This document shows, piece by piece, positions 3,760 through 36,502 of a stretch of DNA of 36,595 nt. This DNA comes from a virus. The notes under the pieces are model-generated. The model was given only the letters and a program-made list of their open reading frames with translations. It made no database searches and had not been told where the DNA came from. The position numbers and the translations under genes were made by a program. Position 1 is the first letter of the stretch; each line of letters opens with the position of its first letter. The stretch is taken from positions 1 to 36,595 of the IMG/VR virus record IMGVR_UViG_3300032893_000180; one strand, written 5' to 3'.

Positions 3760-3776
3760 ACCGGGATTTTTCTTCT

Positions 3777-3804
3777 TTCCCACTAACCACCGACCCCCTG
3801 TTTT
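3777..3804 (+). repeat. Dispersed CCGACCC-type repeat, intergenic copy
   Basis: TTCCCACTAACC then ACCGACCCCCTGTTTT, lying between the HNH gene and the end of the minus-strand cassette. It is set in a pyrimidine-rich stretch, as are the copies at 8897 and 13141. No hairpin forms here, so it is not an ordinary terminator. Confidence 0.6.
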
Positions 3805-3822
3805 TGCTCTCTTTTCTTGTCT

Positions 3823-3951
3823 TTAGAAAGAATCTGGGCGTTCGTCTAATGCATAGTGCTTAATTCGTTCTAGTTGCGAGAATTGCGGCCAATGAAAAGC
3901 CATGTAACGTCCGTCAATCATGAAATAGAAGGCTTCGTGTTTTGATTTCAT
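3823..3951 (-). CDS. 42-aa hypothetical protein
   Basis: A short minus-strand frame with a near-perfect ribosome site (AAGGAGGAAAA just before the ATG at 3951). The protein begins MKSKHEAFYFMIDGRYMAFH and ends DERPDSF. It has no recognisable domain; its aromatic residues and mixed charge look like a small folded protein. The ribosome site overlaps the end of the membrane-protein gene upstream, so it is the last gene of the operon starting at 5470. Confidence 0.65.
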   Translation of the reverse strand: MKSKHEAFYFMIDGRYMAFHWPQFSQLERIKHYALDERPDSF

Positions 3952-3960
3952 TTTTCCTCC

Positions 3961-4308
3961 TTAAAATTTAAATGCAAATGCCGAAAAACCAAATGCCCCA
4001 ATTCCTAAAGCATTTTCTCCCATTGCTCGACCAAAAGAGGAAGGCCAATGAGGGTCGTTGGGAGCGATTTCCGTAAATTTGTAAACTGCTCCAATCATTA
4101 GAGTTGTTACAGCTGAGAAGACAAATGCTTCAGTGGGAGAACAATGAAATGCATTTTTCGCGATTCCATAACTAAACGCAGAGATTGCAAAACTCATTCC
4201 GAAATGAGCAGCAAAATGTGTTGATGCCTCATCAGACGATTCGGCATGCGATACTGTCGCTAGCGCTCCAAGTGCGACGAAAATGAGACCTATTAAAATC
4301 GTTTTCAC
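3961..4308 (-). CDS. Small membrane protein with N-terminal signal
   Basis: A 115-aa protein with a signal-like N-terminus (MKTILIGLIFVALGALATV followed by SHAES, a plausible signal peptidase I site) and two further hydrophobic segments, around HFGMSFAISAFSYGIA (residues 35-50) and FVFSAVTTLMIGAVY (residues 62-76). The rest contains a GENALGIGAFGFSAF stretch near the end. It should sit in or outside the inner membrane. The gene overlaps the methyltransferase by 4 nt (ATGA), so the two are translationally coupled. The family is not recognised; a host-derived accessory function is likely. Confidence 0.7.
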   Translation of the reverse strand: MKTILIGLIFVALGALATVSHAESSDEASTHFAAHFGMSFAISAFSYGIAKNAFHCSPTEAFVFSAVTTLMIGAVYKFTEIAPNDPHWPSSFGRAMGENALGIGAFGFSAFAFKF

Positions 4309-4841
4309 AGTGGTTTCCTAATCATTAAAAGTCCCCGGTTGCATCGTTCATCCGACCTTGATGATTTAGTGAAATGAATTGACAAAAGACCCATTTCTTG
4401 GGCTTTTTGGGGCAACGTAGCAAGACCTGGAAACATCTGCGGAGCATTGGTGTCGTGAAAAAAGGCAAAACCTCCAGGGCTCAAAATGCGAACATGCTCT
4501 GAAAACCAAAGATGACTTCTGAAGTGGTCGGCATCAGAAATGAGAAGATTGATTGAATCAGATGGTTGGGATTTGACAAACTCCTCTTCTCCAGAGACAA
4601 TGATTCGGATGTTCGGATTGATTTTAAGATGATCGGGGCGTTGTCCTTGCCAGTCTGCCCAATTATCAACGGCCGTTAATGTTCCTGTTCCATTAAATTC
4701 AAGTGCCAGTTGCATTGCCTTAGTTAGCCGACCTGATCCAATGCCCAATTCAAGCACGGTTTGAGGCTTAGTTGCTTCGATGAATGAAGCAATTAGGTTG
4801 ATGTGGCAGTCATCCATTGCGATTAAATCATTCCAATTCAT
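4305..4841 (-). CDS. Class I SAM-dependent methyltransferase
   Basis: A 178-aa Rossmann-fold methyltransferase. Motif I is TVLELGIGSGRLTKA (residues ~29-43), the acidic end of strand beta2 is LTAVDNWADWQG, motif IV is LLISDADHFRSH and a later strand is GGFAFFHDTNAP. The order and the DADH/HDTN residues resemble small-molecule or sugar O-methyltransferases (Methyltransf_24-like) rather than DNA methyltransferases, which would carry DPPY or PC motifs. The substrate is unknown. The start has a GGGGAAA site. It lies in the minus-strand cassette between a repeat protein and a membrane protein, with 4-nt overlaps on both sides. Confidence 0.82.
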   Translation of the reverse strand: MNWNDLIAMDDCHINLIASFIEATKPQTVLELGIGSGRLTKAMQLALEFNGTGTLTAVDNWADWQGQRPDHLKINPNIRIIVSGEEEFVKSQPSDSINLLISDADHFRSHLWFSEHVRILSPGGFAFFHDTNAPQMFPGLATLPQKAQEMGLLSIHFTKSSRSDERCNRGLLMIRKPL

Positions 4842-5470
4842 TTTTTCCCCGAATTAATTTGTTTTCTATTAGGAACCAATTTGAGAGCAGCTTTCAATAA
4901 TTTTCTGTACCGTATGAATAGATCTTCTGGAAGTCCCAGATAGCCGGCTTCTTGTTTTGTCACTTTAAGCCATGCAGATCGTTTTTTCAGTTGACACCCA
5001 ATAACAGCATTATCAGGAGTGATGGTTATTGAAAATTTTGTCGCAATTATTATATTGATGATGTGCGAATGATGTTCAATTTTTGCATTCCCGGACACTT
5101 GAGCATTCCCGGACACTCGAGCATCCCCGAACACTCGAGCATCCCAGAACACCCAAGCATTCCCGGACACTTGAGCATTCCCGGACACTTGAGCATTCCC
5201 GAACACTTGAGCATTCTCGGACACCCAAGCATTCCCGGACACTTGAGCATTCCCGGACACTTGAGCATTCCCGAACACTTGAGCATTCCCGAACACTCGA
5301 GCATCCCCGAACACTCGAGCATCCTCGGACACCCAAGAACTCCCAGTTTGGTCTAAATTTGATTCTTTTTCGATCCAACCACCCAATTCACCATCAGATA
5401 GCCGTTCGATTCTAAATAATACTAAATCGCCTAATTTCAGAGTTAAATCCCATCTAAGTTTATATTTCAT
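4838..5470 (-). CDS. Hexapeptide-repeat (beta-helix) protein
   Basis: A 210-aa protein. Residues ~1-45 form an N-terminal cap ending GELGGWIEKESNL. Residues ~46-130 are tandem hexapeptides of the form NAQVSG / DARVFG / NAWVSE, the pattern of left-handed beta-helices. Residues ~130-210 form a distinct C-terminal domain (IATKFSITITPDN onward). Phage and bacterial proteins with a GGWIE.E.NL cap followed by such repeats are known, usually with unknown roles. It is the first gene of the minus-strand cassette, 19 nt downstream of a CATAAT -10. The repeat number is probably variable because the DNA is a tandem array. Confidence 0.8.
   Translation of the reverse strand: MKYKLRWDLTLKLGDLVLFRIERLSDGELGGWIEKESNLDQTGSSWVSEDARVFGDARVFGNAQVFGNAQVSGNAQVSGNAWVSENAQVFGNAQVSGNAQVSGNAWVFWDARVFGDARVSGNAQVSGNAKIEHHSHIINIIIATKFSITITPDNAVIGCQLKKRSAWLKVTKQEAGYLGLPEDLFIRYRKLLKAALKLVPNRKQINSGKK
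5087..5338. repeat. 18-bp tandem repeat array, 14 units
   Basis: Fourteen units of 18 bp read ATTCCCGGACACTTGAGC or close variants on the plus strand. Units 4, 8 and 14 carry the variant ending CCCAAG, which gives a 4-unit (72-bp) higher-order period over units 5-12. Each unit encodes one hexapeptide of the beta-helix on the minus strand. Because the unit is a multiple of three, several other frames stay open across the array, but they encode nothing credible. Confidence 0.95.
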
Positions 5471-7741: not shown

Positions 7742-8854
7742 ATGAAAAAAATCTTTTATGACACGATTAAGAACGAGAAGGGGGGACCTCAAGAGGTCAT
7801 TCTCTCTCCTCGTGAGGCTCGCATGGCGGCCTATTGGGATCGAGTGGCGAATGCTCTCGGTTTCGATGTTGCCATCACGACCCTAACTACAATTGCCAAA
7901 AAGATCACTGAACAGAAGTTCTATCAGGTTGCACCTGCGGACTTTGTTCCGATTCGTGTTGGCGAAGGTGCGTGGTCTGATCAGATCATGACCTACCGCG
8001 ATTATTCGCTGTTCAATGACTTTTCTAAAGGAATTGTGCAGACGGGCGATCAGAATTCCAGACTTCATTCTGTAAGCACTGGTGTCGATTCGGTCTATGT
8101 GCCTGTGTTTAATTGGGCCACTGAGATTGTTTATTCGATTCCTCAGCTAGAACAGGCTGCGAAGTCTGGTAACTGGAGCTTGGTTGAGGCTCTTCACAGA
8201 GCTCAGAAGAAAGACTGGGACTTAGGAATTCAGCAAGTTGCTTTCACGGGACTTGCCGGAGCCAACAGCGCAGGGCTGCAAAGTCAAGCACTGGGTCTTC
8301 TCAATCAGAACTTAAGCTCGGTTTATGGTGGGCAAATCACGGTCAACACTTCGTTTTTGACGAACTCAATCACGAGCTTGGCTGCCACGCCTTCTAATCT
8401 ATCGGCATTCATTGGCGGACTTCTCAACATTTACAGACAGAACTGCCAATCGACTGCTTGGCCGACTCACTTCGTGATTCCTCAGAGCGATTTCTTAGGA
8501 TTGGCGACTCCTTCGAGCCCGTCTTTCCCCTTGAAATCCATCCTGGAGCTCATGCAGGAGACTTTCCAGACGATGACCGGCAATCCGAACTTCCAGATTC
8601 TTCCCGCCGCTTATGCAGACGCAATCAGCGCGAGCAATCCACAGGGAGCTTCGTCTTCCAATCAGATCTATACTCTGTACAACTATGCAGAGGAATCGAT
8701 CCGAATGGACATTCCGGTGGACTTCACGAACACCTTGGCGAACACACTTAACAACTACCAATTCCAATCAGCTGCCTATGGCCAGCTAACTGGTGTTGGC
8801 GTTTATAGGCCCGCCGAGCTGCTCTATTTGCAGTTCCCCGCATCTAATCTATAA
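7742..8854 (+). CDS. Major capsid protein (DUF2184 type)
   Basis: At 370 aa, the gene has the size and position of the major capsid protein, after the decoration gene and before a strong terminator. DUF2184 capsid proteins adopt the HK97 fold. Features include LSPREARMAAYWDRVANALG near the start, the VGEGAWSDQIMTYRDYSLF segment, DWDLGIQQVAFTG in the middle, and FVIPQSDFLGLATP followed by QILPAAYADA toward the end. The ribosome site is AAAGGAAAC. The gene is immediately followed by a stem-loop terminator, consistent with a separate abundant transcript. Confidence 0.87.
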   Translation: MKKIFYDTIKNEKGGPQEVILSPREARMAAYWDRVANALGFDVAITTLTTIAKKITEQKFYQVAPADFVPIRVGEGAWSDQIMTYRDYSLFNDFSKGIVQTGDQNSRLHSVSTGVDSVYVPVFNWATEIVYSIPQLEQAAKSGNWSLVEALHRAQKKDWDLGIQQVAFTGLAGANSAGLQSQALGLLNQNLSSVYGGQITVNTSFLTNSITSLAATPSNLSAFIGGLLNIYRQNCQSTAWPTHFVIPQSDFLGLATPSSPSFPLKSILELMQETFQTMTGNPNFQILPAAYADAISASNPQGASSSNQIYTLYNYAEESIRMDIPVDFTNTLANTLNNYQFQSAAYGQLTGVGVYRPAELLYLQFPASNL

Positions 8855-8865
8855 CAGTTCTCTAG

Positions 8866-8898
8866 GGAGAGCCCCTAAAAAGGCTCTCCTTTTCTTTT
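8866..8898 (+). terminator. Rho-independent terminator after the capsid gene
   Basis: The stem GGAGAGCC (8866-8873) pairs with GGCTCTCC (8882-8889) around an 8-nt loop and is followed by TTTTCTTTT. It starts 11 nt after the capsid stop and is the clearest intrinsic terminator in the window. Confidence 0.88.
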
Positions 8899-8920
8899 CC
8901 CACTAACCCGACCCTGTTTT
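8897..8920 (+). repeat. Dispersed CCGACCC-type repeat, after the capsid terminator
   Basis: TTCCCACTAACC then CGACCCTGTTTT, directly after the terminator T-tract. Together with the copies at 3777 and 13141 it shows that the element favours short gaps between genes. Confidence 0.6.
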
Positions 8921-8965
8921 TTGTTTTTCTCCACAATTGATTGTGTGAGGAAAAAGCATTACAAA

Positions 8966-8996
8966 GCACAATTCCTTCACAATTGGCTGCTAAACT
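8966..8996 (+). promoter_or_regulatory. Promoter with inverted TGTGAAGG box, before GT9 gene
   Basis: Extended -10 TGC-TAAACT (hexamer 8991-8996). GCACAATTCCTTCACA at 8966-8981 is the exact reverse complement of 16 bases of the promoter at 5503-5518, so the box is present but flipped, 9 nt before the -10. A ribosome site AGGAGG follows at 9009-9014, so this transcript has a normal leader of about 18 nt. Confidence 0.55.
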
Positions 8997-9020
8997 CTTA
9001 CATTAACAGGAGGAACATCA

Positions 9021-10301
9021 GTGCCAATCATTCAAAAGCAAAACGCAATGTTTCAGGCTCGATTTGTCACTCAAGTTGAGGGCGGATTTCTTTTGCCGAA
9101 AGGGTCGTTTAAAGAGGATGAGGATGGGAATGCGGTATTTCCTGGCCCAAATGGTCAAGGAGCAACGATCATTAAAGCAGGGCACTTTGGCATCACCGAG
9201 GACGGTTCTCTTCGTATTGCGGAGAAATTTGTAAACACAGCAACTCCCGGCATCATTCTAGTCTCCGGCGAAATTCTATTAATCGACCCTAATGCATGCC
9301 TCATGGTGCCCAATCGTCTAATTCCTTCCTGCCGCACGGTGATTGCTCGAGAACGAGGAGCTGATCGTAATTTATTAATTAAATGTCATGGTGGCGTTGG
9401 GGATGTTGTGTGCGCTGAACCAGCGGTCAGATTTGCCTTAAATCGTTTCCCCGAAGAAAAAATCTCACTTTGCACCGACTATCCCGAATTTTTTCAACAC
9501 CTTAAGTTTGCAGAAATTTTTCCTGCCTCTGGCGAAAATCAGCCTAAATACCGTAAATTCTTAGTTTTTCAAAATTTTTCTCAAGGGGACGAACTTGCTT
9601 GGGAATTTGTTGCTCATCCGTTAATGCATGCGGTTGATTATGCGTCGTTAAACATGTGGCGACTCATTCTGCCCAATTCTTTAAAGCGCGTGATTTTGCA
9701 GCCGACAGAGAAACAAATCTCTAGAATGATTGGGCATTTTCCTCTTGGATTTTTCGAACAACCGATGGTTGTAATTCATCCAGGAAAAACTTGGGACTCA
9801 CGAACATTTCCTAAAAAGTGGTGGGACACAATCATTTCGGGGCTTAAAGATGCCGGCATCATGCCTGTCATAATTGGAGGCAATGTTGACAAACAGAAAG
9901 ACGGGAGTTATAGGGCCGGGACAGTGGATGTTGAGACGGATGGTTGCATTGATTTGCGTTATAAATTAGACTGGGGGGAGACGGTTGCATTATTGCAAGC
10001 AACCTCAGTTTTGTTAACGAATGACTCGAGTCCTCTTCACATTGCTGCATCAGGAGATGCTTTCATAGGATTTGTATCAACAGTGAAGCATGCAGATCAT
10101 TTGCTCCATCATCGAAGAGGTGGGCTTGGTTGGCGCATGAAAGACTTCGCGAAGGACACTTTGTTTAACCAACTTAATTTCTGTCCCAATCAGGAAAAGG
10201 AAATTCACGTGGACAAAGTGCATGTTCTCGATCTTTTAAAAATGCTACCTGAGCCCACCGAACTTGTGGATTGGACTCTTTCCAAATTAAAAGGAGAATG
10301 A
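9021..10301 (+). CDS. Glycosyltransferase family 9-like protein
   Basis: A 426-aa protein. Residues ~1-110 form a separate N-terminal part without a recognised fold. From ~115 on it follows the GT-B fold of family 9 (heptosyltransferase-like): LLIKCHGGVGDVVCAEPAV at the first Rossmann strand, VVIHPGKTWDSRTFPKKWW at the start of the second half, PVIIGG, and the nucleotide-sugar site LLTNDSSPLHIAAS. Bacterial members add heptose to lipopolysaccharide core. The GTG start at 9021 has a strong AGGAGG site and its own promoter. Being inside the virion operon, it may glycosylate virion proteins or host surface sugars; that is inference. Confidence 0.85.
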   Translation: MPIIQKQNAMFQARFVTQVEGGFLLPKGSFKEDEDGNAVFPGPNGQGATIIKAGHFGITEDGSLRIAEKFVNTATPGIILVSGEILLIDPNACLMVPNRLIPSCRTVIARERGADRNLLIKCHGGVGDVVCAEPAVRFALNRFPEEKISLCTDYPEFFQHLKFAEIFPASGENQPKYRKFLVFQNFSQGDELAWEFVAHPLMHAVDYASLNMWRLILPNSLKRVILQPTEKQISRMIGHFPLGFFEQPMVVIHPGKTWDSRTFPKKWWDTIISGLKDAGIMPVIIGGNVDKQKDGSYRAGTVDVETDGCIDLRYKLDWGETVALLQATSVLLTNDSSPLHIAASGDAFIGFVSTVKHADHLLHHRRGGLGWRMKDFAKDTLFNQLNFCPNQEKEIHVDKVHVLDLLKMLPEPTELVDWTLSKLKGE

Positions 10302-10305
10302 ATTA

Positions 10306-10506
10306 ATGCCTTTGTTTGATTTTAAGTGTTCAAATTGTCAGAAAATTTTCGAAACCCTAGCGACCTATCAGGACAAACCTTCGTGTCCTCATTGTGGATC
10401 AGGCGCCGTAGAACGTCAAATTTCTAAGCCTGCTCCTCCACAATTTAAAGGAAGTGGCTTTTATGAAACAGATTATAAGAAAAAGACCTATCAGAAAGGG
10501 AAATGA
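10306..10506 (+). CDS. FmdB-family zinc-ribbon protein
   Basis: A 66-aa protein starting MPLFDFKCSNCQKIFE with a second pair CPHC at ~28-31, which makes the four-cysteine zinc ribbon of the FmdB/Zn-ribbon family. The tail is basic (GFYETDYKKKTYQKGK), a typical FmdB ending. The original FmdB was proposed as a regulator of formamidase genes, but the role in phages is unknown. It follows the GT9 gene by 4 nt with AAGGAGAATG as ribosome site, so it is cotranscribed. The next gene starts inside its 3' end. Confidence 0.85.
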   Translation: MPLFDFKCSNCQKIFETLATYQDKPSCPHCGSGAVERQISKPAPPQFKGSGFYETDYKKKTYQKGK

Positions 10507-10747
10507 CACAATCATTGTCTTAAAAAAGAAAATTAATGAGGCGCAAAAAGCACAGGCTCATATGGCAAGTTGTAATCTAGAACTCATGCGAAAAATTGAT
10601 CGATTAGAAAGCATGATTAGGCATACAAAGATTGTGCTGAAAGCCGTGCTTGATTTTCCCAACAATGCATGGCCGTTGGATGAGGCGAGAAATCTTTTGA
10701 GATTGATTGAAAAACATGACAAAAAGGCCCATAAAGATGACATTTAA
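10463..10747 (+). CDS. Hypothetical coiled-coil protein
   Basis: A 94-aa basic, helical protein (MKQIIRKRPIRKG at the start, NLELMRKIDRLESMIRHTK in the middle) that probably forms a coiled coil. A GTG at 10454 extends the frame but sits almost on the AAAGGAAG element; the ATG at 10463 has proper spacing and is preferred. It overlaps the FmdB gene by 44 nt in another frame. Composition past the overlap looks coding. Function unknown. Confidence 0.55.
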   Translation: MKQIIRKRPIRKGNDTIIVLKKKINEAQKAQAHMASCNLELMRKIDRLESMIRHTKIVLKAVLDFPNNAWPLDEARNLLRLIEKHDKKAHKDDI

Positions 10748-18672: not shown

Positions 18673-19752
18673 GTGAAAGTCGGTGAGTTAGAAATTGTTG
18701 TTTCGCTTAAAGGCGCGTCTGATGTTGGAACAGGCCTCACTCATGTCCACGATGGCATGCAGGACGTCAAGAGCATGGCATTGGAGACTAAGGCAGCGAT
18801 TCTCGGCGTAATTTATGGATTGGAGCAAATGGCCTCTCAGTCTCTTCACGCTGGACTCGGACTTCAAAAATTTGGAAATTTGACAGGACTTAACACAGTT
18901 GTGTTGCAGAAATGGCAATATGCACTGCAGCAATCCGGTGTGGAAGCAAGCGAAACTGAATCGGCAATTGTTAATTTGCAGAGCAAAATGGCCGAAGTGA
19001 TTGTTAAGGGAACTGGCGTGACTGGAATGCAGCCTGTTTTCGAAGCTGTTGGAATTGATGAAAAACGCATTCGTGACACCTATTATGTACTGGGAAAACT
19101 GAGGGAATTTGCTCAATCGCATCAAGCAACGCCCGACATCACGCGAACGTTGATGCAGAGTTTGTTGCCTCCTGATGTAATTCAAGCGTTGATGACAGGA
19201 ACATTCAATCCAGAAAATGCCCCCAAATCGCAAATCTATGGGGATCGCACTGCACAAGGACTTGCTCAGTCTCAAATCGCTTTAACTAACCTGAAAACTA
19301 AGCTTGAGCATGAATTCGGTCAGTTAACAGTTAAGTTTGCTCCAACATTAATTCCGGACATCGATCGTCTGGCCACTTCAATTTTTCACTTAGTTGACGC
19401 CTTTTCCCAATTATTAATTCGACTCAATGCAATTAAAGCAATCAATTCAATCTTTTCTGGTTGGAGTCAGCTATTTCAAACGGCTGCCGATCTAATTCCC
19501 AGTTCCACTAACAAACAAACTCTTCTGCCGTCGAGTTCTAATTTAGATTATTTTCTAAGGAATTCCTTGACAGGAATTCTGGGAACAGCTCCTGTAGGAA
19601 CAAAAACTTTGATTAATAATTCGAACACAACAGTGCATGCTCATGGAATGGATGCGAACGAAATGACCAAGCTGATTAAAGACACCCATTCGAAAGCAAC
19701 TAGTAATGCGTTTCGAGACATTAATTCAGTGAGCAAGAAGCAAAATAATTAA
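18673..19752 (+). CDS. Tape measure protein (short)
   Basis: A 359-aa protein directly after the frameshifted chaperones, which identifies it as the tape measure. It starts with GTG after an AGAGGA site. The sequence is largely helical (ALETKAAILGVIYGLEQMA, then QKWQYALQQSGVEASETESA), with a hydrophobic part and a QIALTNLKTKLEHEFGQLTV stretch. The length is small: at about 0.15 nm per residue it predicts a tail near 54 nm, so a short contractile tail. The protein lacks recognisable peptidase or lysozyme domains, which some tape measures contain. Confidence 0.78.
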   Translation: MKVGELEIVVSLKGASDVGTGLTHVHDGMQDVKSMALETKAAILGVIYGLEQMASQSLHAGLGLQKFGNLTGLNTVVLQKWQYALQQSGVEASETESAIVNLQSKMAEVIVKGTGVTGMQPVFEAVGIDEKRIRDTYYVLGKLREFAQSHQATPDITRTLMQSLLPPDVIQALMTGTFNPENAPKSQIYGDRTAQGLAQSQIALTNLKTKLEHEFGQLTVKFAPTLIPDIDRLATSIFHLVDAFSQLLIRLNAIKAINSIFSGWSQLFQTAADLIPSSTNKQTLLPSSSNLDYFLRNSLTGILGTAPVGTKTLINNSNTTVHAHGMDANEMTKLIKDTHSKATSNAFRDINSVSKKQNN

Positions 19753-20666
19753 TGCAGAAATTCAATCGAAATTATATAATTAACTTCACATTCGAAAGCG
19801 GGGCTTTGTCTTTCTCAATTTCCCGACCCCTCACTATTGAATTCGACATCAATCGTCAAGACTATGCCTCCTGCAATTATGCCTCTATAAGATTAATCAA
19901 TTTGTCTCAACAACATCGAAACAAACTAGAACATGACATCATTAATACGAATGAAGGATCGGCAATTAATGTTGAACTTCAGGCAGGTTATGGAAATGGG
20001 CCAACTTTTCCAGTGATTTTTAAAGGGAATGTTCAAAAAGGCTATTCACATCGCGAAGGAACTAGATTTGTTACGACATTAGAATGCTATGATGCGGGAA
20101 TTGGGCTTCAAACTGGCTGGTCAATGCATCAGATTGCTGCCGGCACTTTGATGACCGATGTCTTTAAACTCCTGATTGCCGATCTTCTGCCTTATGGAAT
20201 TGTCCAAGGACCCATTTCTCCAGGTCCGGTTCCTGGATCGACAACTTGGGGAGTTGTGAGCAAGGGATTTGGGATTGATGGTCCGACTCGCGATGTTTTG
20301 AGCCAATTAACTAACAGTAATTTCTACGTAGACAATGGCGTTGCAATCATTTGTCCTCCTGGTTTCGCTACAGGTCCCCAAATCAATCCTCCAGTTATTA
20401 ATGCCCAGTCAGGTCTTCTTTCGACACCATTCACTCAGCAATCCATAATTGATTTCGAAATGATTTTTGAGCCAACACTCAAAGTTGGGGATACAATTAA
20501 TTTGCAGAGCTCAACAGCCAACTCAGCCGTTAATGGTTTTCATCAGATCATTGGAATTAATCATAGAGGGGTAATTTCGGATGCTGTTGCTGGCACAGCA
20601 ACCACACGGCTTCGGTGTCGAGGTGGCGTGTTTCAGGGACTTTTGGCGAACACAGGAGCTGTTTAA
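19752..20666 (+). CDS. Baseplate hub protein
   Basis: A 304-aa protein just after the tape measure, the site of baseplate hub genes (gpD / gp27 / Mu gp44 type). Features are FTFESGALSFSISRPLTIEF, then DYASCNYASIRLINLSQQHR, VELQAGYGNGPTFPVIFKGN (a typical hub strand pattern GY....PVIFKG) and VGDTINLQSS near the end. Hubs form the trimeric or hexameric base on which the spike sits. The ATG overlaps the tape measure stop by one base. The family is inferred by order and pattern. Confidence 0.72.
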   Translation: MQKFNRNYIINFTFESGALSFSISRPLTIEFDINRQDYASCNYASIRLINLSQQHRNKLEHDIINTNEGSAINVELQAGYGNGPTFPVIFKGNVQKGYSHREGTRFVTTLECYDAGIGLQTGWSMHQIAAGTLMTDVFKLLIADLLPYGIVQGPISPGPVPGSTTWGVVSKGFGIDGPTRDVLSQLTNSNFYVDNGVAIICPPGFATGPQINPPVINAQSGLLSTPFTQQSIIDFEMIFEPTLKVGDTINLQSSTANSAVNGFHQIIGINHRGVISDAVAGTATTRLRCRGGVFQGLLANTGAV

Positions 20667-21214
20667 TGAGTAAATCAATTCTAGGGGACGGAAAGCTCGA
20701 AATTCTGCGGCAGGCAGTGTTGGAAACGAAAATGTTACCTGGAGACATGGCCGAATTAGGCGTCTATCAAGGTGGCACTGCCAAAATGATGCTTGAAAAT
20801 GCCTCAGGAAAAACAATACATCTTTTTGACACATTTGAGGGCATGCCTTTTCAAGGATCCGAAGATGTTCATAAAAAAGGTGAGTTTGCTGACTGTATCG
20901 ACCCAAATGATCTTCTAGAAGAGCTTAAAGACTATAAAGTCGTGATTTATAAAGGGATTTTTCCTGACGATCGATTTCCATTTCATGCTCGATTTTCGTG
21001 TGTTCATTTAGATGCTGACCAATTCCAATCAACGTTAGATGGACTAAAACATTTCGGACATCGAATGGTCGTTGGTGGACTAATGGTTTGTGATGATTGG
21101 GAATGGAGAAACTGTCCAGGCGTTAAAGAAGTCATTCTTCAATGGCTTCCCACCAATCCCAATTTCAGCTATAATGTTATTGGGCATCAAGCGTTAATTC
21201 GGAGGAATGAATAA
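20666..21214 (+). CDS. TylF/MycF-type O-methyltransferase
   Basis: A 182-aa protein that matches the TylF (macrocin O-methyltransferase) family, which methylates sugar hydroxyls with SAM and a metal ion. Key motifs: GDMAELGVYQGGTAKMMLEN (residues ~27-46), KTIHLFDTFEGMP (SAM-binding acidic residue), FSCVHLDADQFQSTLDGLKH and GGLMVCDDWEWRNCPGVK, whose aspartates fit the metal site. It is a little shorter than bacterial members. The start ATG overlaps the hub stop. Lying inside the baseplate operon near a GT8-like gene, it probably methylates a glycan linked to the virion or host surface; substrate unknown. Confidence 0.85.
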   Translation: MSKSILGDGKLEILRQAVLETKMLPGDMAELGVYQGGTAKMMLENASGKTIHLFDTFEGMPFQGSEDVHKKGEFADCIDPNDLLEELKDYKVVIYKGIFPDDRFPFHARFSCVHLDADQFQSTLDGLKHFGHRMVVGGLMVCDDWEWRNCPGVKEVILQWLPTNPNFSYNVIGHQALIRRNE

Positions 21215-22096
21215 GTGGCGGTTAGTCTTTCCACAATTACAACTGCCGTTTCTGGCATCACGTCAATCCTTTTGGTTAGTCCTCAAACTATTGTGGGCTA
21301 TCAGCCTCAACCAAGTCTAATCAGCGGGTCTTCAGTTGCTGCCAATCCTCCTGCTTTTTTGTTTCATTATGAAGGAGAAAACACCGCAACAATTGATTCC
21401 GACATCACCGACGAGTTTGTAGAAGACAACACAGCGATTCAAGATCAAATTGCTTTACGCCCTATTTTAGTTACAACTCAAGGCTTCATTGGGGAACTGA
21501 ACAACATTCCGCCATTGCCGAGTGGTCTTGCTGGCCAAATCATTTCAACTGCATTAAATGCGCTCACTCCACTTGCTCAATATGCGCCTGGAGTTAGTGT
21601 CACTGCTCAAAATGCATATAATGAGGCTTTCTTTGCCATTCAAGTTGCAAATGCTGCAAAAAATAATGCTGTTGCTGCTTGGAGCACAATCACTGGAACT
21701 GGCGGCGAATCAGTTATAGGACCTAATGGAATTGCCATTCAACCCAATCAAAGCAAACAGCAAACTGCTTTTCAAACATTTTTTGGCTATTGGACAACAC
21801 GAACATTATTCACGATTCAAACGCCGTGGGTTATAATGCAGAACATGGCAATTAAAACTCTTAAAGCAATCCAAAGCCCCGAAACAAACGTCATAACTGA
21901 TTTCGAGATCACATTCAAACAGATGAGATTTGCCTCAAGTCTTTTAGGCAATCCAACATCAACGTTGCCCTATTCATTGCCGGAAAATTTTGGAGGAAGA
22001 TTGCAACAACAAGGCGCATTGCCTGTGGACTTAGGAACGAGCAACTTAACAACGAGCCCAACTGGATTTACTTCTGCTCTTTCAGGAGTTGCTTAA
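21215..22096 (+). CDS. Baseplate protein (Dit-like / hub adaptor)
   Basis: A 293-aa baseplate protein. The sequence HYEGENTATIDSDITDEFVE, then NTAIQDQIALRPILVTTQGF and IGEL resembles the N-terminal domain of Dit-like proteins in myovirus baseplates, where NTA(I)QDHI.L.P....... GF.GEL is typical. The middle is helical (VTAQNAYNEAFFAIQVANAA), and the C-terminal part (FQTFFGYWTTRTLFTIQTPW, TDFEITFKQMRFA) is beta-rich. It lies between hub and plug genes. The GTG start follows GGAGG. The assignment is from pattern only. Confidence 0.68.
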   Translation: MAVSLSTITTAVSGITSILLVSPQTIVGYQPQPSLISGSSVAANPPAFLFHYEGENTATIDSDITDEFVEDNTAIQDQIALRPILVTTQGFIGELNNIPPLPSGLAGQIISTALNALTPLAQYAPGVSVTAQNAYNEAFFAIQVANAAKNNAVAAWSTITGTGGESVIGPNGIAIQPNQSKQQTAFQTFFGYWTTRTLFTIQTPWVIMQNMAIKTLKAIQSPETNVITDFEITFKQMRFASSLLGNPTSTLPYSLPENFGGRLQQQGALPVDLGTSNLTTSPTGFTSALSGVA

Positions 22097-22452
22097 TGTT
22101 TCAGATTCAACAAATCACGAGTGATCCAATCCAACAGCAAACCCTTGTGCTTCCTGATGGAACACAGATTGGTTTGTTAATGTTCTTTTCTCCCATTTCA
22201 TCAATTTGGAATTGTAATTTAACCTATGGATCTTCATTTGTTCTTAATGGGATGCAAATTGTAAATAATCCAAACATGCTTCAGCCTTGGAAAAACCTCA
22301 TTCCCTTTGGTCTTGCCTGTTTTTCTTCTGCCCAACGAGAACCGACCCAAATTTCTGATTTCTCTTCCGGCTACTCGTCTTTGTTTGTTCTTGACGCAAC
22401 GGATGTTGCGTCCTATCAAGATGCTTTAGAAGCAGGGAGTGCAAGTGGATGA
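22096..22452 (+). CDS. Baseplate plug protein (Pam3 gp18-like)
   Basis: A 118-aa beta-rich protein. The pattern QQTLVLPDGTQIGLLMFFSP, then IWNCNLTYGSSFVLNGMQIV, LQPWKNLIPFGLAC and DFSSGYSSLFVLDATD resembles the small plug proteins that close the hub in Pam3-like myoviruses (DUF6983). These span the inside of the baseplate between the Dit-like hub and the spike. The ATG overlaps the previous stop by one base and has AGGAG. Order and size agree. Confidence 0.72.
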   Translation: MFQIQQITSDPIQQQTLVLPDGTQIGLLMFFSPISSIWNCNLTYGSSFVLNGMQIVNNPNMLQPWKNLIPFGLACFSSAQREPTQISDFSSGYSSLFVLDATDVASYQDALEAGSASG

Positions 22453-22645
22453 GTCGGTAACAAAAACTAAGGTTTGGGAGCTTGTTTGCGACTTCTTTGA
22501 AGGAGACGAAGTTAAAACAATGCGATGGCTTATGATGCCCAATCCTAGCTTAGGACACATTAAACCGATCATAATGCTGAAAACAAAGCCCGAAAAGCTA
22601 GAAAAAATTGTTCGAAATTGGTTAAGAGGCGACTATCACAAATGA
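22439..22645 (+). CDS. Orphan MbcA/ParS/Xre-type antitoxin domain protein
   Basis: A 68-aa protein that consists almost wholly of a DUF2384-like domain, the toxin-binding part of MbcA/ParS/Xre antitoxins: VWELVCDFFEGDEVKTMRWL, then MMPNPSLGHIKPIIMLKTKP and EKLEKIVRNWLRGDY follow the pattern A..lFg....A..WL..PNp.LGg..P...l.t.....V...L. No RES toxin or DNA-binding domain accompanies it. The start is the GTG at 22439 or, with better ribosome spacing (GGGAG), the GTG at 22445. It overlaps the plug gene and the next gene. It might neutralise a host RES/MbcT-type toxin; that is inference. Confidence 0.72.
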   Translation: MQVDESVTKTKVWELVCDFFEGDEVKTMRWLMMPNPSLGHIKPIIMLKTKPEKLEKIVRNWLRGDYHK

Positions 22646-23286
22646 AACGACTTGCAATCATCACACTAGCGATTGGGGATGGGATTAGGGAACTTGCTCA
22701 GCTCACTCATCCGCGCATGAAAAGTTATGCAGATTCGATTGGCGCTGATTTCATTGTTTTAAATGAGCGTAAATTTCCCACAGACATCATTTGCTACGAA
22801 AAGCTTCAAATTGCCGACCTTTTAGTCGGTTACGATCGAATTTGCTACGTGGACACAGATGTTCTAATCAGCCCTTTTGCCCCATCAATTTTCGAACAGG
22901 TGCCGGAAGACAGGGTCGGGTTATTCGAAGAGGGGCAAATCCTCGATCGAAAACAGGCCTTAGAAAAAGCAAAGGCAGATGGGTGGGGTGACTGGATTTG
23001 CGAAGCAAATCATTATTTTAACGCCGGGGTCTTTGTCTTTTCTTCTAATCACCGACCCATTTTGTCCCCTCCTCCCGTCTTTATAAATAATTTCCAAGAT
23101 CAAACATGGATGAATTGTCAAGTGTTTAAAAGTGGCGCCAAAAGAGAGGCATTGCCGTTAAAGTTCGACCACATGCCGTCAATTGATTGGCATGAACGCC
23201 ATAAGAGTTATTTTGTGCATTATGCAGGTTGTGGAGCCGAACAGGCGGCTCGTTTAGTGGCTGAGGACATTAGGAGGGGCATGTGA
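22642..23286 (+). CDS. GT8-like glycosyltransferase
   Basis: A 214-aa GT-A type glycosyltransferase. RLAIITLAIGDGIRELAQLT forms the first strand, the metal- and nucleotide-sugar-binding DxD motif is ICYVDTDVLISPFAP (residues ~71-85), and further typical segments are HYFNAGVFVFSSNHRP and SYFVHYAGCG. These resemble galactosyl/glucosyltransferases of family 8. The ATG at 22642 overlaps the previous stop (ATGA). Two copies of the dispersed heptamer (22910 inverted and 23043 direct) lie inside the coding region. With the TylF-type and GT9 genes it suggests sugar modification by the phage. Confidence 0.82.
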   Translation: MKRLAIITLAIGDGIRELAQLTHPRMKSYADSIGADFIVLNERKFPTDIICYEKLQIADLLVGYDRICYVDTDVLISPFAPSIFEQVPEDRVGLFEEGQILDRKQALEKAKADGWGDWICEANHYFNAGVFVFSSNHRPILSPPPVFINNFQDQTWMNCQVFKSGAKREALPLKFDHMPSIDWHERHKSYFVHYAGCGAEQAARLVAEDIRRGM

Positions 23287-23999
23287 GTCAACCGGTTGTT
23301 CCTCCGTTTCTTCCAATTGCAGAACCTTCATTAAAAGATTTGTTGGACGCGCATAAGAAAGACATTCTTCTTTCCACTAATTGTCACGCAATTGCAACAG
23401 TGTTTTCATTCACACCGCAAGACTCAGGAAATGGGCTTGCAAAAATCACCGCAACGATGAATTATAAAAAATCATTCACAGTGCAACAACCAAACGGTGG
23501 CTTTGTCACACAAGTTCAAAACTATCCAGCACTTGTTGACTGCCCTGCGATTGTTTTGGGAGGAGGGCCAGTCAGTTTACAAATGCCAATTGCTTCTGGG
23601 GATCAATGCTTAATTCTTTTTAACGATCGAGACCTAACAACGTGGTGGGCGTCGCCAGAAGGAGCTGCTTCAGCATTGCCCAGCTCTCGTTTGCACAGTT
23701 TTTCAGATGCTATTGCACTAGTCGGATTTAAACAATGGCACATTGATGACACCATTAGAGCCTTATTAACAAATGGAAATGCGGCTTTAGGAATTAATCC
23801 ATCGAACAATAAAATTACGATTAAAAATACAGATGAAGGCACTTTAAACACTCTTTTACAAAATTTAATTAACGCAGTTAAAGCCATCACTGTGACAACA
23901 TCAGTGCCGAGCACACCAGGAAATTATACGAGCGGGACGCCTAACAATTCAGGGGATTTGACGGCTGCAGCAAATGCTTTGGCGGCACTTCTTGAATGA
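23283..23999 (+). CDS. Baseplate spike protein (Gp138-like)
   Basis: A 238-aa protein of the central spike or membrane-piercing needle type. The OB-fold region carries IATVFSFTPQDSGNGLAKIT, then CPAIVLGGGPVSLQMPIASG, DQCLILFNDRDLTTWWASPE and RLHSFSDAIALVGF (residues ~139-152), the usual Gp138 pattern. The C-terminal third contains a short repetitive beta part (INPSNNKITIKNTDEGTL) typical of the needle. The start is GTG at 23283, within a GGAGGGGCAT context that overlaps the previous gene. It follows hub and plug genes in the expected order. Confidence 0.8.
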   Translation: MSQPVVPPFLPIAEPSLKDLLDAHKKDILLSTNCHAIATVFSFTPQDSGNGLAKITATMNYKKSFTVQQPNGGFVTQVQNYPALVDCPAIVLGGGPVSLQMPIASGDQCLILFNDRDLTTWWASPEGAASALPSSRLHSFSDAIALVGFKQWHIDDTIRALLTNGNAALGINPSNNKITIKNTDEGTLNTLLQNLINAVKAITVTTSVPSTPGNYTSGTPNNSGDLTAAANALAALLE

Positions 24000-24476: not shown

Positions 24477-25958
24477 ATGCCTAATTCATTTGGCTCTCAA
24501 GGGCTCACAACTGCAACTCAATCTGAACTTGTCGCCAATTATGTAGCTGGATTTCAAGCGATTTATGGCCCGAACATTAACGTCGGTCCTGAAACGCCCG
24601 ATGGTCAGATGATCAATCTGCCGATTCAAACGGCACTTGATGTTGAAAATCTTCTTCTTCAAATTTATAATTCTTTTAATTATCAAAATGCTTTTGGAAC
24701 GTCTCTCGATCAAAGAGCAGCAATCGTTGGCATTCAAAGACAAGCCGGCACATTCACGACAATTGATATTACTGTTGTAACTTCTCAATCTGTCAATCTT
24801 TATGGGCTTGATCAAACAGCCCAATCTGTTTATACAATTAGTGATGAGGCCGGAAATCAATATCAACTTCAAACAACTCAATTAGGTTTAAGCCCTGGAT
24901 CTTCCACATTAATTTTCTCAGCCGTAACTCCAGGAGCAATTACACCAGTTCCGAACACAATTACAGTTCCTGTTTCTATCGTGCTAGGTGTGACATCAGT
25001 TAATAATCCAACAAATGCATTGACAATTGGACTTAATGAAGAGAGTGATGCAGCTCTTCGCATTCGAATTTCTCAATCTGTTGCGCTTTCAGGACAAGGC
25101 TTTTATAACAGTTTGCTCGCAGCTCTTCTTAACATTCCTGGCGTAACATATGCGACAATCATTGAAAACAACACAGGAACTCCCGAAGCATTCGGTTCTC
25201 TTTCTTTGCCTGGACATACAATTTGGGTGATCACGGCCGGAACAGGAAGTCCCTCTCAAATCGCTAATGCAATTTATATGAAGCGAAATGCCGGGGCAGG
25301 AATGTTTAATTCTGGGGGGTCGGGAGCACAAAGCTATAATATAACACAGGCAGATGGATCAATTTTCACAATCTATTGGGATGATGTGGTTGGCGAACCC
25401 CTTTATATTAAATTTAATGTAAGCTCAATTAATGGAAGCACGCCCCCCAATCTTCCTGCCATCACCGACCCTTCAACAGGCCTTGCTTCGAAATTAATGC
25501 CTGGTGTTAATGCTTCGGTCAACGCTAATGAAATCGCCACACTTGTGCAGCAAATTGATCCAAACAGTTATGTTTCGAACATTGGACTTGGAACGGCAGT
25601 TGATGGGTCGGCGTCAATTATAAGTCCTTCAACACCGAACGAACAATTCACAGTTGCCCAAAGTGACATAATTGCAATTCCAATGTACATCACATCACCT
25701 AACGGAAATTTAACTGTTTCTTCGGGATCAGTCATTTCCGCAGTGTCAGTGACAACCTTAGGAAGCATCCAATTTACGGCCTATGGCGGCTATTCCACTT
25801 ATGTTTGGTCATTACAGACGAATGTTAGCGGAGGATCAATTAATTCAGTGACAGGAGCCTATGTGGCAGGGTCAAGCACAGGAATTGATGTGGTTAAAGT
25901 GCATGATTCTGATCCGGCTGGATCTAACGTTGCTTTAAGCTATGTAACCGTGACTTAG
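24477..25958 (+). CDS. Baseplate J-like protein with C-terminal Ig-like domain
   Basis: A 493-aa protein of the baseplate J / gp6 family that builds the wedge. The N-terminal part has GPNINVGPETPDGQMINLPI and FNYQNAFGTSLDQRAAIVGI (residues ~70-89), the middle ALTIGLNEESDAALRIRISQ and LLAALLNIPGVTYATIIENN (residues ~210-229), all usual in J proteins. The last ~75 residues (SIQFTAYGGYSTYVWSLQTN ... STGIDVVKVHDSDPAGS) form an Ig-like module closely similar to the one starting the 13607 protein. The ribosome site is GAGGA. An inverted repeat copy lies just after its stop. Confidence 0.86.
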   Translation: MPNSFGSQGLTTATQSELVANYVAGFQAIYGPNINVGPETPDGQMINLPIQTALDVENLLLQIYNSFNYQNAFGTSLDQRAAIVGIQRQAGTFTTIDITVVTSQSVNLYGLDQTAQSVYTISDEAGNQYQLQTTQLGLSPGSSTLIFSAVTPGAITPVPNTITVPVSIVLGVTSVNNPTNALTIGLNEESDAALRIRISQSVALSGQGFYNSLLAALLNIPGVTYATIIENNTGTPEAFGSLSLPGHTIWVITAGTGSPSQIANAIYMKRNAGAGMFNSGGSGAQSYNITQADGSIFTIYWDDVVGEPLYIKFNVSSINGSTPPNLPAITDPSTGLASKLMPGVNASVNANEIATLVQQIDPNSYVSNIGLGTAVDGSASIISPSTPNEQFTVAQSDIIAIPMYITSPNGNLTVSSGSVISAVSVTTLGSIQFTAYGGYSTYVWSLQTNVSGGSINSVTGAYVAGSSTGIDVVKVHDSDPAGSNVALSYVTVT

Positions 25959-34875: not shown

Positions 34876-35559
34876 ATGAATCGTCATTGGAAACGTAAAT
34901 TAGAGTCTACAAAGGTTAAAAATCAAATTGCTGCTCGTAGGGCATTAATCCAAACTCGACAACGACTCATGCTCACGTTCTTTCTTGGAGTTTTGGGCTA
35001 TGTTCTTTTTGCCTTTTTCATAATCAGTTGTTTGATTGGTTGTGCAAAAATTACACCAATTCCTCAGGCTCAGAATTGCTCAGTCGTGCAAGATGACAAT
35101 GGGGCTACAATCACATGTCCTAATGGGTCGACGGCTGTTGTTGCTAATGGGGCGATTGGACCACAAGGAGACCAAGGACCGCAAGGAGTTGCTGGACCAC
35201 AAGGGGAGCAAGGGCCTCAGGGAGCAACTGGTGCCACAGGAGCGACAGGGGCTCAGGGGGCTGTTGGTGCTACGGGTGCCACTGGAGCAACCGGTGCCAC
35301 AGGTGCTAAGGGCGAAAAGGGCAGCCCAGGAACGCCAGGAACTGTCATAACGGCTATTCAGTTCTGTTCCTCCGACTTCATTCCGACCTATCCGACCACT
35401 TTCCCTGAATTCGGTCTCTGCATTGGAGGTCAGCTTTATGGAGTTTATTCCGCAAATGGAGGTTTTTTAACCCTTTTGCCTCAGGGAACTTACAGTTCGG
35501 ATGGTGTTAATGCCTCATGCAATTTCACCATTGGCGCAAATTGCACAATCACTCGCTAG
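34876..35559 (+). CDS. Collagen-like lipoprotein
   Basis: A 227-aa protein. Residues ~1-33 are basic ([17 protein letters not shown] at the start), residues ~34-52 hydrophobic, and the lipobox LIGC (cysteine ~56) is followed by [13 protein letters not shown]. Residues ~92-158 are G-X-Y repeats ([16 protein letters not shown], then [14 protein letters not shown]). The last ~70 residues form a Cys-containing domain ending [15 protein letters not shown]. It should be a trimeric lipoprotein at the cell surface of the infected host. Its separate promoter marks it as a probable accessory gene. A role in host-surface change is inference. Confidence 0.82.
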
Positions 35560-35980: not shown

Positions 35981-36155
35981 ATTGGTTGGCGCAATCCGCG
36001 CTGTTTATGATCAGACCAAAAAATCACTAGGAGTTCCTAATCAGATTATAATGGACGCAGATGATTTCAGCTTGATCGCAAAGCATCATGGAATGGCGGA
36101 TTCTTGGATTGAATCCTACATTGAGAGACACACAATTAAACCGGAAAAAGAATGA
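35955..36155 (+). CDS. 66-aa hypothetical protein
   Basis: MKKKTRKNELVGAIRAVYDQ, then SLGVPNQIIMDADDFSLIAK and HHGMADSWIESYIERHT, a charged and probably helical protein. The start overlaps the preceding gene by 26 nt and uses its GAAGAA-rich end as a weak ribosome site. It overlaps the XRE gene by 4 nt. Function unknown. Confidence 0.62.
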   Translation: MKKKTRKNELVGAIRAVYDQTKKSLGVPNQIIMDADDFSLIAKHHGMADSWIESYIERHTIKPEKE

Positions 36156-36502
36156 GGCGGACTATTAAACGTGCGACAATTACAATGGCAGTGGATGGTG
36201 TTATTGAATACTTTACAGTGCCGAGAAATATCTTGGTGCAGATTCGGCAGAAGCACCTGGCTCCATACGCCTTAACTAGCTTCATTAAAGGTGACCGGCC
36301 TGGCGAACGGATTCGACGCCTACGTCAAGAGCGGAATTGGAATCAGGCTATGTTGGGGAAAAAACTTAAGGTTGGGCAAAGTGCCATTACGGCTTTGGAA
36401 ACGGGTCCGAAAGAAGTGAGCGCAAAAATGGCCTTGAAGCTTGGGGATTTATTTCAGATAAACCCAAGGATTTTTTTAGGGTCTAATAAGAAAAAGAAAT
36501 GA
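36152..36502 (+). CDS. XRE-family helix-turn-helix protein
   Basis: A 116-aa protein. Residues ~52-110 are an XRE/Cro-CI domain: GERIRRLRQERNWNQAMLGK, then KLKVGQSAITALETGPKEVS and LGDLFQINPRIF, with all five helices. Residues 1-50 (TITMAVDGVIEYFTVPRNIL) form a short extra part that may dimerise or bind a ligand. It could be a phage regulator or an antitoxin, but no toxin-like gene is visible next to it. It lies at the end of the accessory operon and is a candidate to bind the repeated DNA boxes described here. Confidence 0.8.
   Translation: MRRTIKRATITMAVDGVIEYFTVPRNILVQIRQKHLAPYALTSFIKGDRPGERIRRLRQERNWNQAMLGKKLKVGQSAITALETGPKEVSAKMALKLGDLFQINPRIFLGSNKKKK

Follow-up and report, generated by a model that had tools for sequence, protein, structure and literature searches.

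Profile searches and structure prediction together confirm that an open reading frame among the baseplate genes of a soil-type bacterial virus (22439-22645, + strand) encodes the predicted toxin-binding half of a RES-type antitoxin and lacks the part that binds DNA. The window analyzed here is a whole IMG/VR record (IMGVR_UViG_3300032893_000180; 36,595 nucleotides, or 36.6 kb). Our leading reading, held tentatively, is that the phage has kept this minimal half as a free-standing antitoxin mimic; a binding domain re-used for some other partner is nearly as likely. Proteins of the same kind recur in other viral records, and they are a real, selected, and scattered phage gene family.

A toxin-binding domain on its own

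The gene would be read from GTG 22439 as 68 residues or from a second in-frame GTG at 22445 as 66 residues; a putative Shine-Dalgarno-like AGGGAG (22434-22439), read from the sequence, lies 5 nt upstream of the latter. Residues 20-54 match Pfam PF09722 (Xre/MbcA/ParS toxin-binding; E=1.9e-6, 28.2 bits against a cut-off of 24.5), with profile positions 6-38 falling on 22496-22600, and the protein closes with a C-terminal tail, G64-D65-Y66-H67-K68 (22628-22642), at the place where most aligned full antitoxins end in G-x-F/Y-A/S. The PF09722 score is not outstanding: a second profile search gave 26.8 bits, against 15-33 for lone phage copies. The NCBIfam models TIGR02293 and NF049845 are matched in their C-terminal halves only, at positions 75-117 of 133 (29.4 bits, under the cut-off of 57) and 54-96 of 112 (29.5 bits, under the cut-off of 90). 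Together with structure alignments that begin at residue 81-82 of 6gw6 and 8gug, these matches show that the N-terminal Xre-type HTH half is missing. A search for a RES gene (PF08808) at E<=10 found none in the record, which is possibly incomplete, and neither PHROGs nor PADLOC has a family for the protein. The initial annotation had described 68 residues that are nearly all DUF2384-like domain, with no DNA-binding part and no accompanying RES toxin, and this description holds.

The predicted fold points the same way. In phmmer searches of the PDB with the protein by itself, a ParS antitoxin ranked first (E=0.5), and a profile built from it and seven plasmid relatives found five RES antitoxins (E 2e-18 to 0.005). 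Matches of the domain profile to RnlA (E 0.78-0.84) were weak and were taken as chance. An AlphaFold2 model built on a 26-row alignment has four helices (pLDDT 85.6, pTM 0.65), and the top 12 of its 14 Foldseek matches in the PDB are RES antitoxins, namely ParS, MbcA, Xre, NatR, and VPA0769 (E 0.41-2.7, prob 0.54-0.98). The MbcA/ParS-type fold that the initial annotation had assumed is therefore what structure prediction gives, with Foldseek E values that are weak even at best (0.41). In VIA, the antitoxin rows align over 61-66 residues with Z 6.2-9.2, whereas two unrelated rows reach 2.1-2.2; the best are 8gug_B (Z 9.2, covering residues 1-67 of the model) and 6gw6_B (Z 8.6). That other folds are missing from these lists was not counted as a test. 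In the structure alignments the protein stays co-linear as far as the C-terminal ends of 8gug, 6gw6, and 6d0h, and fold and sequence together match the toxin-binding half alone, beginning with its first helix. The closest comparison is with the ParS fragment in the ParT-ParS structure (6d0h), which is the same domain, 72 residues long against 68, and co-linear to the C-terminus. The ParS of 6d0h is a fragment of a full antitoxin from a toxin-antitoxin pair, whereas the phage gene encodes that part alone. With the RES/Xre type II antitoxins in general (MbcTA, NatRT, VPA0770-0769, GndRX) the protein shares PF09722, the fold, and the conserved W..P...LG...P; unlike them, it comes without an HTH half and without a RES gene, and it stays under the TIGR02293 and NF049845 cut-offs.

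Single-protein searches with the 68 residues found no relative in viral contigs or genome contigs, and phages gave chance-level matches only. The best plasmid matches, mostly annotated antitoxins, are weak as well (E 0.05 or worse). A RES gene is annotated right after the antitoxin in four of the eight plasmid regions first inspected (L052, L053, L055, L056); a ninth region has none. The alignment with seven plasmid relatives shows F20, W30, L38, P43, T49, and G64 kept, and the tail reads G-D-Y where most of the seven have G-x-F/Y-A/S. A Marinobacter antitoxin ends G-D-Y-S at the place where the window protein ends G-D-Y-H-K. Two Shewanella plasmids carry a lone toxin-binding domain of 69 residues (L062:2501-2710 and L054:2501-2710) with no RES reading frame after it; umuDC precedes the gene in L062, and an Alteromonas plasmid (L063) has a frameshifted relative.

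Lone PF09722 proteins in other viruses

A degenerate DNA pattern for the core F-x9-W-[hydrophobic]-xx-PN-xx-L/F-G-xxx-P retrieved 32 IMG/VR stretches, of which L068, L070, and L072 were dropped (28-codon frames) and 29 kept for tests. All 29 further records match PF09722, 17 of them above the cut-off, and the domain stands essentially alone in 26. Leaving out three longer, bacterial-type proteins (L078, L088, L092) and four that duplicate a protein already counted (L085, L094, L096, L097) gives 22 distinct proteins, mostly of 62-86 residues; extra N-terminal sequence occurs in L065 (137 or 97 residues) and L098 (94 or 77 residues). The pattern itself fixes F20, W30, P34, N35, L/F38, G39, and P43, so the conservation of these residues in our alignment of the members (A4) proves nothing, and because members without them would be missed, 29 records is a lower bound. 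A RES gene was found in none of the 29, many of which are fragments. In A4, 25 of the 26 members match an NCBIfam RES/Xre antitoxin model at E<=0.01.

The window protein fits within this family: a model built from the other 22 gives it 55.7 bits, inside the 50.8-89.6 that those 22 span in leave-one-out scoring. On a bacterial model it scores 48.4 bits; both models are small and home-made, and since the bacterial set was mostly drawn with the window protein as query, the comparison of bacterial with phage affinity was not used. Three related phage copies show pN of 0.19-0.25 against pS of 0.82-0.96, which is strong purifying selection. PHROGs has families, all of them weak, for two of three other lone phage proteins tested. 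UniProt holds at least one stand-alone phage case of the domain, known from its database name alone, and our literature searches on the topic turned up no publication about a lone PF09722 protein in phages. The further records, the domain standing alone in most of them, the absence of RES, and the selection on three copies are new here. One phage contig carries two lone PF09722 genes in tandem (L079; G021:C1:3497-3610 and 3765-3893, - strand).

Candidate functions

If the window protein is an antitoxin mimic, it would be made alongside the baseplate proteins by translation from overlapping start and stop codons and, as a small helical domain, would bind a NAD-degrading RES toxin of the host or a related toxin of the ADP-ribosyl-transferase fold. 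The helix and tail at its C-terminus would block the toxin's NAD pocket, and the NAD of the infected cell would stay available until assembly is finished. For this mimic we infer the toxin binding, the identity of the toxin, the timing, and the benefit. The 72-residue ParS fragment (6d0h_B), which is the same half, was solved in complex with the toxin ParT, indicating that the toxin-binding half suffices for binding. In NatR-NatT, the C-terminal helix of the antitoxin is reported to enter the substrate cavity of the toxin (PMC11535050), and the same cavity-filling mode is reported for other RES-Xre systems (PMC12457610). The residues and G-D-Y tail kept in the alignment with plasmid relatives, the recurrence of lone domains in viral records that lack RES, and the purifying selection on three phage copies also speak for the mimic. 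Phage antitoxin mimics are moreover an established kind (PMC11481870). A free copy lacking the HTH half could hardly repress a toxin operon but could bind, which makes an antitoxin mimic the leading explanation. The likeness to Dmd, pseudo-ToxI, and ICP1 Gp145 (PMC11481870) and to TifA lies in neutralization of a host toxin and extends to the proposed role only; those are different molecules that meet other toxins and have a proven function, whereas the role of the window protein is predicted. Phage-borne pairs of RES and HTH proteins (PMC9503650) share the RES-antitoxin biology on phages, but they are complete pairs, compared with half an antitoxin here.

Several points speak against the antitoxin mimic. 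According to PMC11535050, immunity has not been linked to any RES system, and the absence of NatT left susceptibility to >50 phages unchanged. An antidote to an early-acting toxin would not be expected in a late operon. Counting against the mimic too are the C-terminal third, which has diverged in most siblings, the absence of the gene from 16 other records of its phage group, and the weak Foldseek E values.

That divergence is also a ground for the strongest alternative, in which the helical binding surface is kept but now serves another host or phage protein or a nucleic acid, the protein being a small adaptor or regulator encoded among the late genes. We regard this as a serious possibility, somewhat short of the antitoxin mimic. 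In most phage copies the PF09722 match stops at about position 33-38 of 51, which means that the region closest to the toxin pocket has changed in them, and with most sibling proteins differing in the C-terminal third the protein may bind some other partner. Beyond the residues set by the pattern, most copies have K at 26, many have a GR..KL..FI-like segment where bacterial ones have G..xV..L, and the tail of G plus an aromatic residue occurs in only some. The C-terminal part is also often basic: the net charge from P43 on is +1 to +6 in 19 of 23 phage proteins (+4 in the window protein), compared with -5 to +4 in the seven plasmid relatives. Neighbor annotation, which covered 20 large proteins, puts several sibling genes in head-packaging clusters. 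The lone gene is flanked by terminase and portal in L075 and L082, comes directly after portal in L099, immediately precedes terminase in L086 and L095, is two genes away from it in L098, and stands ahead of a portal/adaptor gene in L091. Terminase or portal lies within 1.5 kb of the lone gene in seven of 13 marker-bearing records; this adjacency is weak against the 4.3 expected (P=0.048), and we claim no enrichment because some markers were found by searching neighbors first, which introduces a bias. Also arguing against a changed partner is the match to the RES/Xre antitoxin model that nearly all aligned members retain.

A far less probable variant leaves the binding mechanism unchanged and alters the beneficiary: the protein would protect an infected or phage-carrying cell from addiction modules borne by plasmids or competing mobile elements, and host defense would not be its target. 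Plasmids do bear RES pairs beside full antitoxins, and the lone 69-residue copies without RES on two Shewanella plasmids would fit, but a strictly lytic phage would gain little.

Whether the antitoxin mimic extends beyond this phage is more doubtful than the mimic itself. The wider proposal is that tailed phages of the environment repeatedly carry RES-antitoxin domains on their own to inhibit the NAD-degrading RES toxins of their hosts. If true, RES-Xre modules would be a phage-defense system betrayed by its counter-measure, and a simple reason for the repeated retention of the toxin-gripping half alone would be that phages meet such toxins during infection. The 22 small genes make this idea of an encounter directly testable and would also give ready-made RES inhibitors.

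The baseplate operon and its cargo

The genes described here around the lone domain lie on the + strand. The baseplate hub (19752-20666; Pfam, PHROGs, relatives) is followed by a TylF-like methyltransferase (20615-21214; PF05711, E=3.3e-15), which is cargo between hub and Dit, then by the Dit-like baseplate protein (21215-22096; Pfam, homologues in relatives) and a baseplate plug-like protein (22096-22452; PF22479 at E=0.00099, below cut-off; phrog_349; homologue in the stretches of 9/9 relatives). After the lone domain come a GT8-like glycosyltransferase (22642-23286; PF01501 at E=1.5e-4, below cut-off), which is further cargo, a baseplate spike-like protein (23283-23999; PF18352, homologues in relatives), and baseplate J (24477-25958; Pfam, PHROGs, relatives). 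The plug gene stop falls within the start of the lone domain gene, whose own stop overlaps the ATG of the GT8-like gene at 22642 (ATGA). From this overlap, the lone domain would be expressed late together with the virion genes; a promoter and terminator scan gave 10 promoter-like sites against 14.8 in shuffles, or no excess, and carries no weight either way.

Among the named relatives that the searches reached, Bdellovibrio phage phi1422 is the closest (37% in baseplate J, 40% in Dit, 51% in portal). A related portal was found in thirty-one viral contigs, and a search of genome contigs with the portal protein found no relative. None of the 16 other records of the group that were searched (15 portal-related viral contigs and phi1422) has PF09722, and seven of the same 16 have Dit homologues. 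Eight stretches (L043-L050, including phi1422) contain the complete operon of TMP, Dit, plug, hub, spike, gp25, and J, with best baseplate J segments 38-60% identical to that of the window; a ninth, L051, ends inside the hub and agrees in order up to there. The lone domain gene is absent from all eight complete operons, in which the ORF lists show the plug directly followed by the hub and no small gene between them. In the window, the lone domain occupies the place of the relatives' hub. The gene is thus accessory cargo and not a needed part of the baseplate.

This bears on the suggestion, made in the initial annotation, that the domain was turned into a virion assembly factor, to which one may add a minor baseplate component. 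The gene does sit between plug and spike with codons overlapping on both sides, but the complete relative operons have neither it nor a small gene in its stead, and the PDB fold matches are to antitoxins and none to virion proteins. Such a role is accordingly improbable, and one arm of the earlier interpretation is weakened. The other parts fared better: a lone domain, free of HTH and RES, does lie inside a baseplate operon, as the Dit-like, Pam3-plug-like, and hub families (Pfam) and the baseplate J and gp25-like wedge families (Pfam, PHROGs) establish, and neutralization of a host toxin is compatible with the results. It is equally improbable that the gene is a non-functional passenger left from a captured antitoxin gene, as its presence in a single record of its own phage group and its lone domain might suggest, given that it is intact, confidently folded in the model, and tightly overlapped with both neighbors, with purifying selection on lone copies elsewhere.

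The window operon is rearranged, with the hub ahead of Dit instead of after the plug as in the eight complete relatives, and with three cargo genes: the TylF-like methyltransferase, the lone domain, and the GT8-like gene. A related phage has a further cargo position, an 821-residue reading frame between gp25 and baseplate J (L047, oriented 8117-10582). Sugar-related cargo lies among the structural genes of the window at 20615-21214, 22642-23286, 9021-10301, and 4305-4841 (- strand), comprising the TylF-like methyltransferase, GT8-like and GT9-like glycosyltransferases, and a second methyltransferase; perhaps it modifies host-surface or virion glycans. Adjoining a methyltransferase, a probable beta-helix protein has short VFGNAQVSGNA-type repeats (4838-5470, - strand). 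At the other end of the record, an Xre-type HTH protein with a long N-terminal extension (36152-36502) has a weak PADLOC match to defense-locus regulators, and a collagen-like repeat protein (PF01391, E=5.3e-10) is encoded at 34876-35559.
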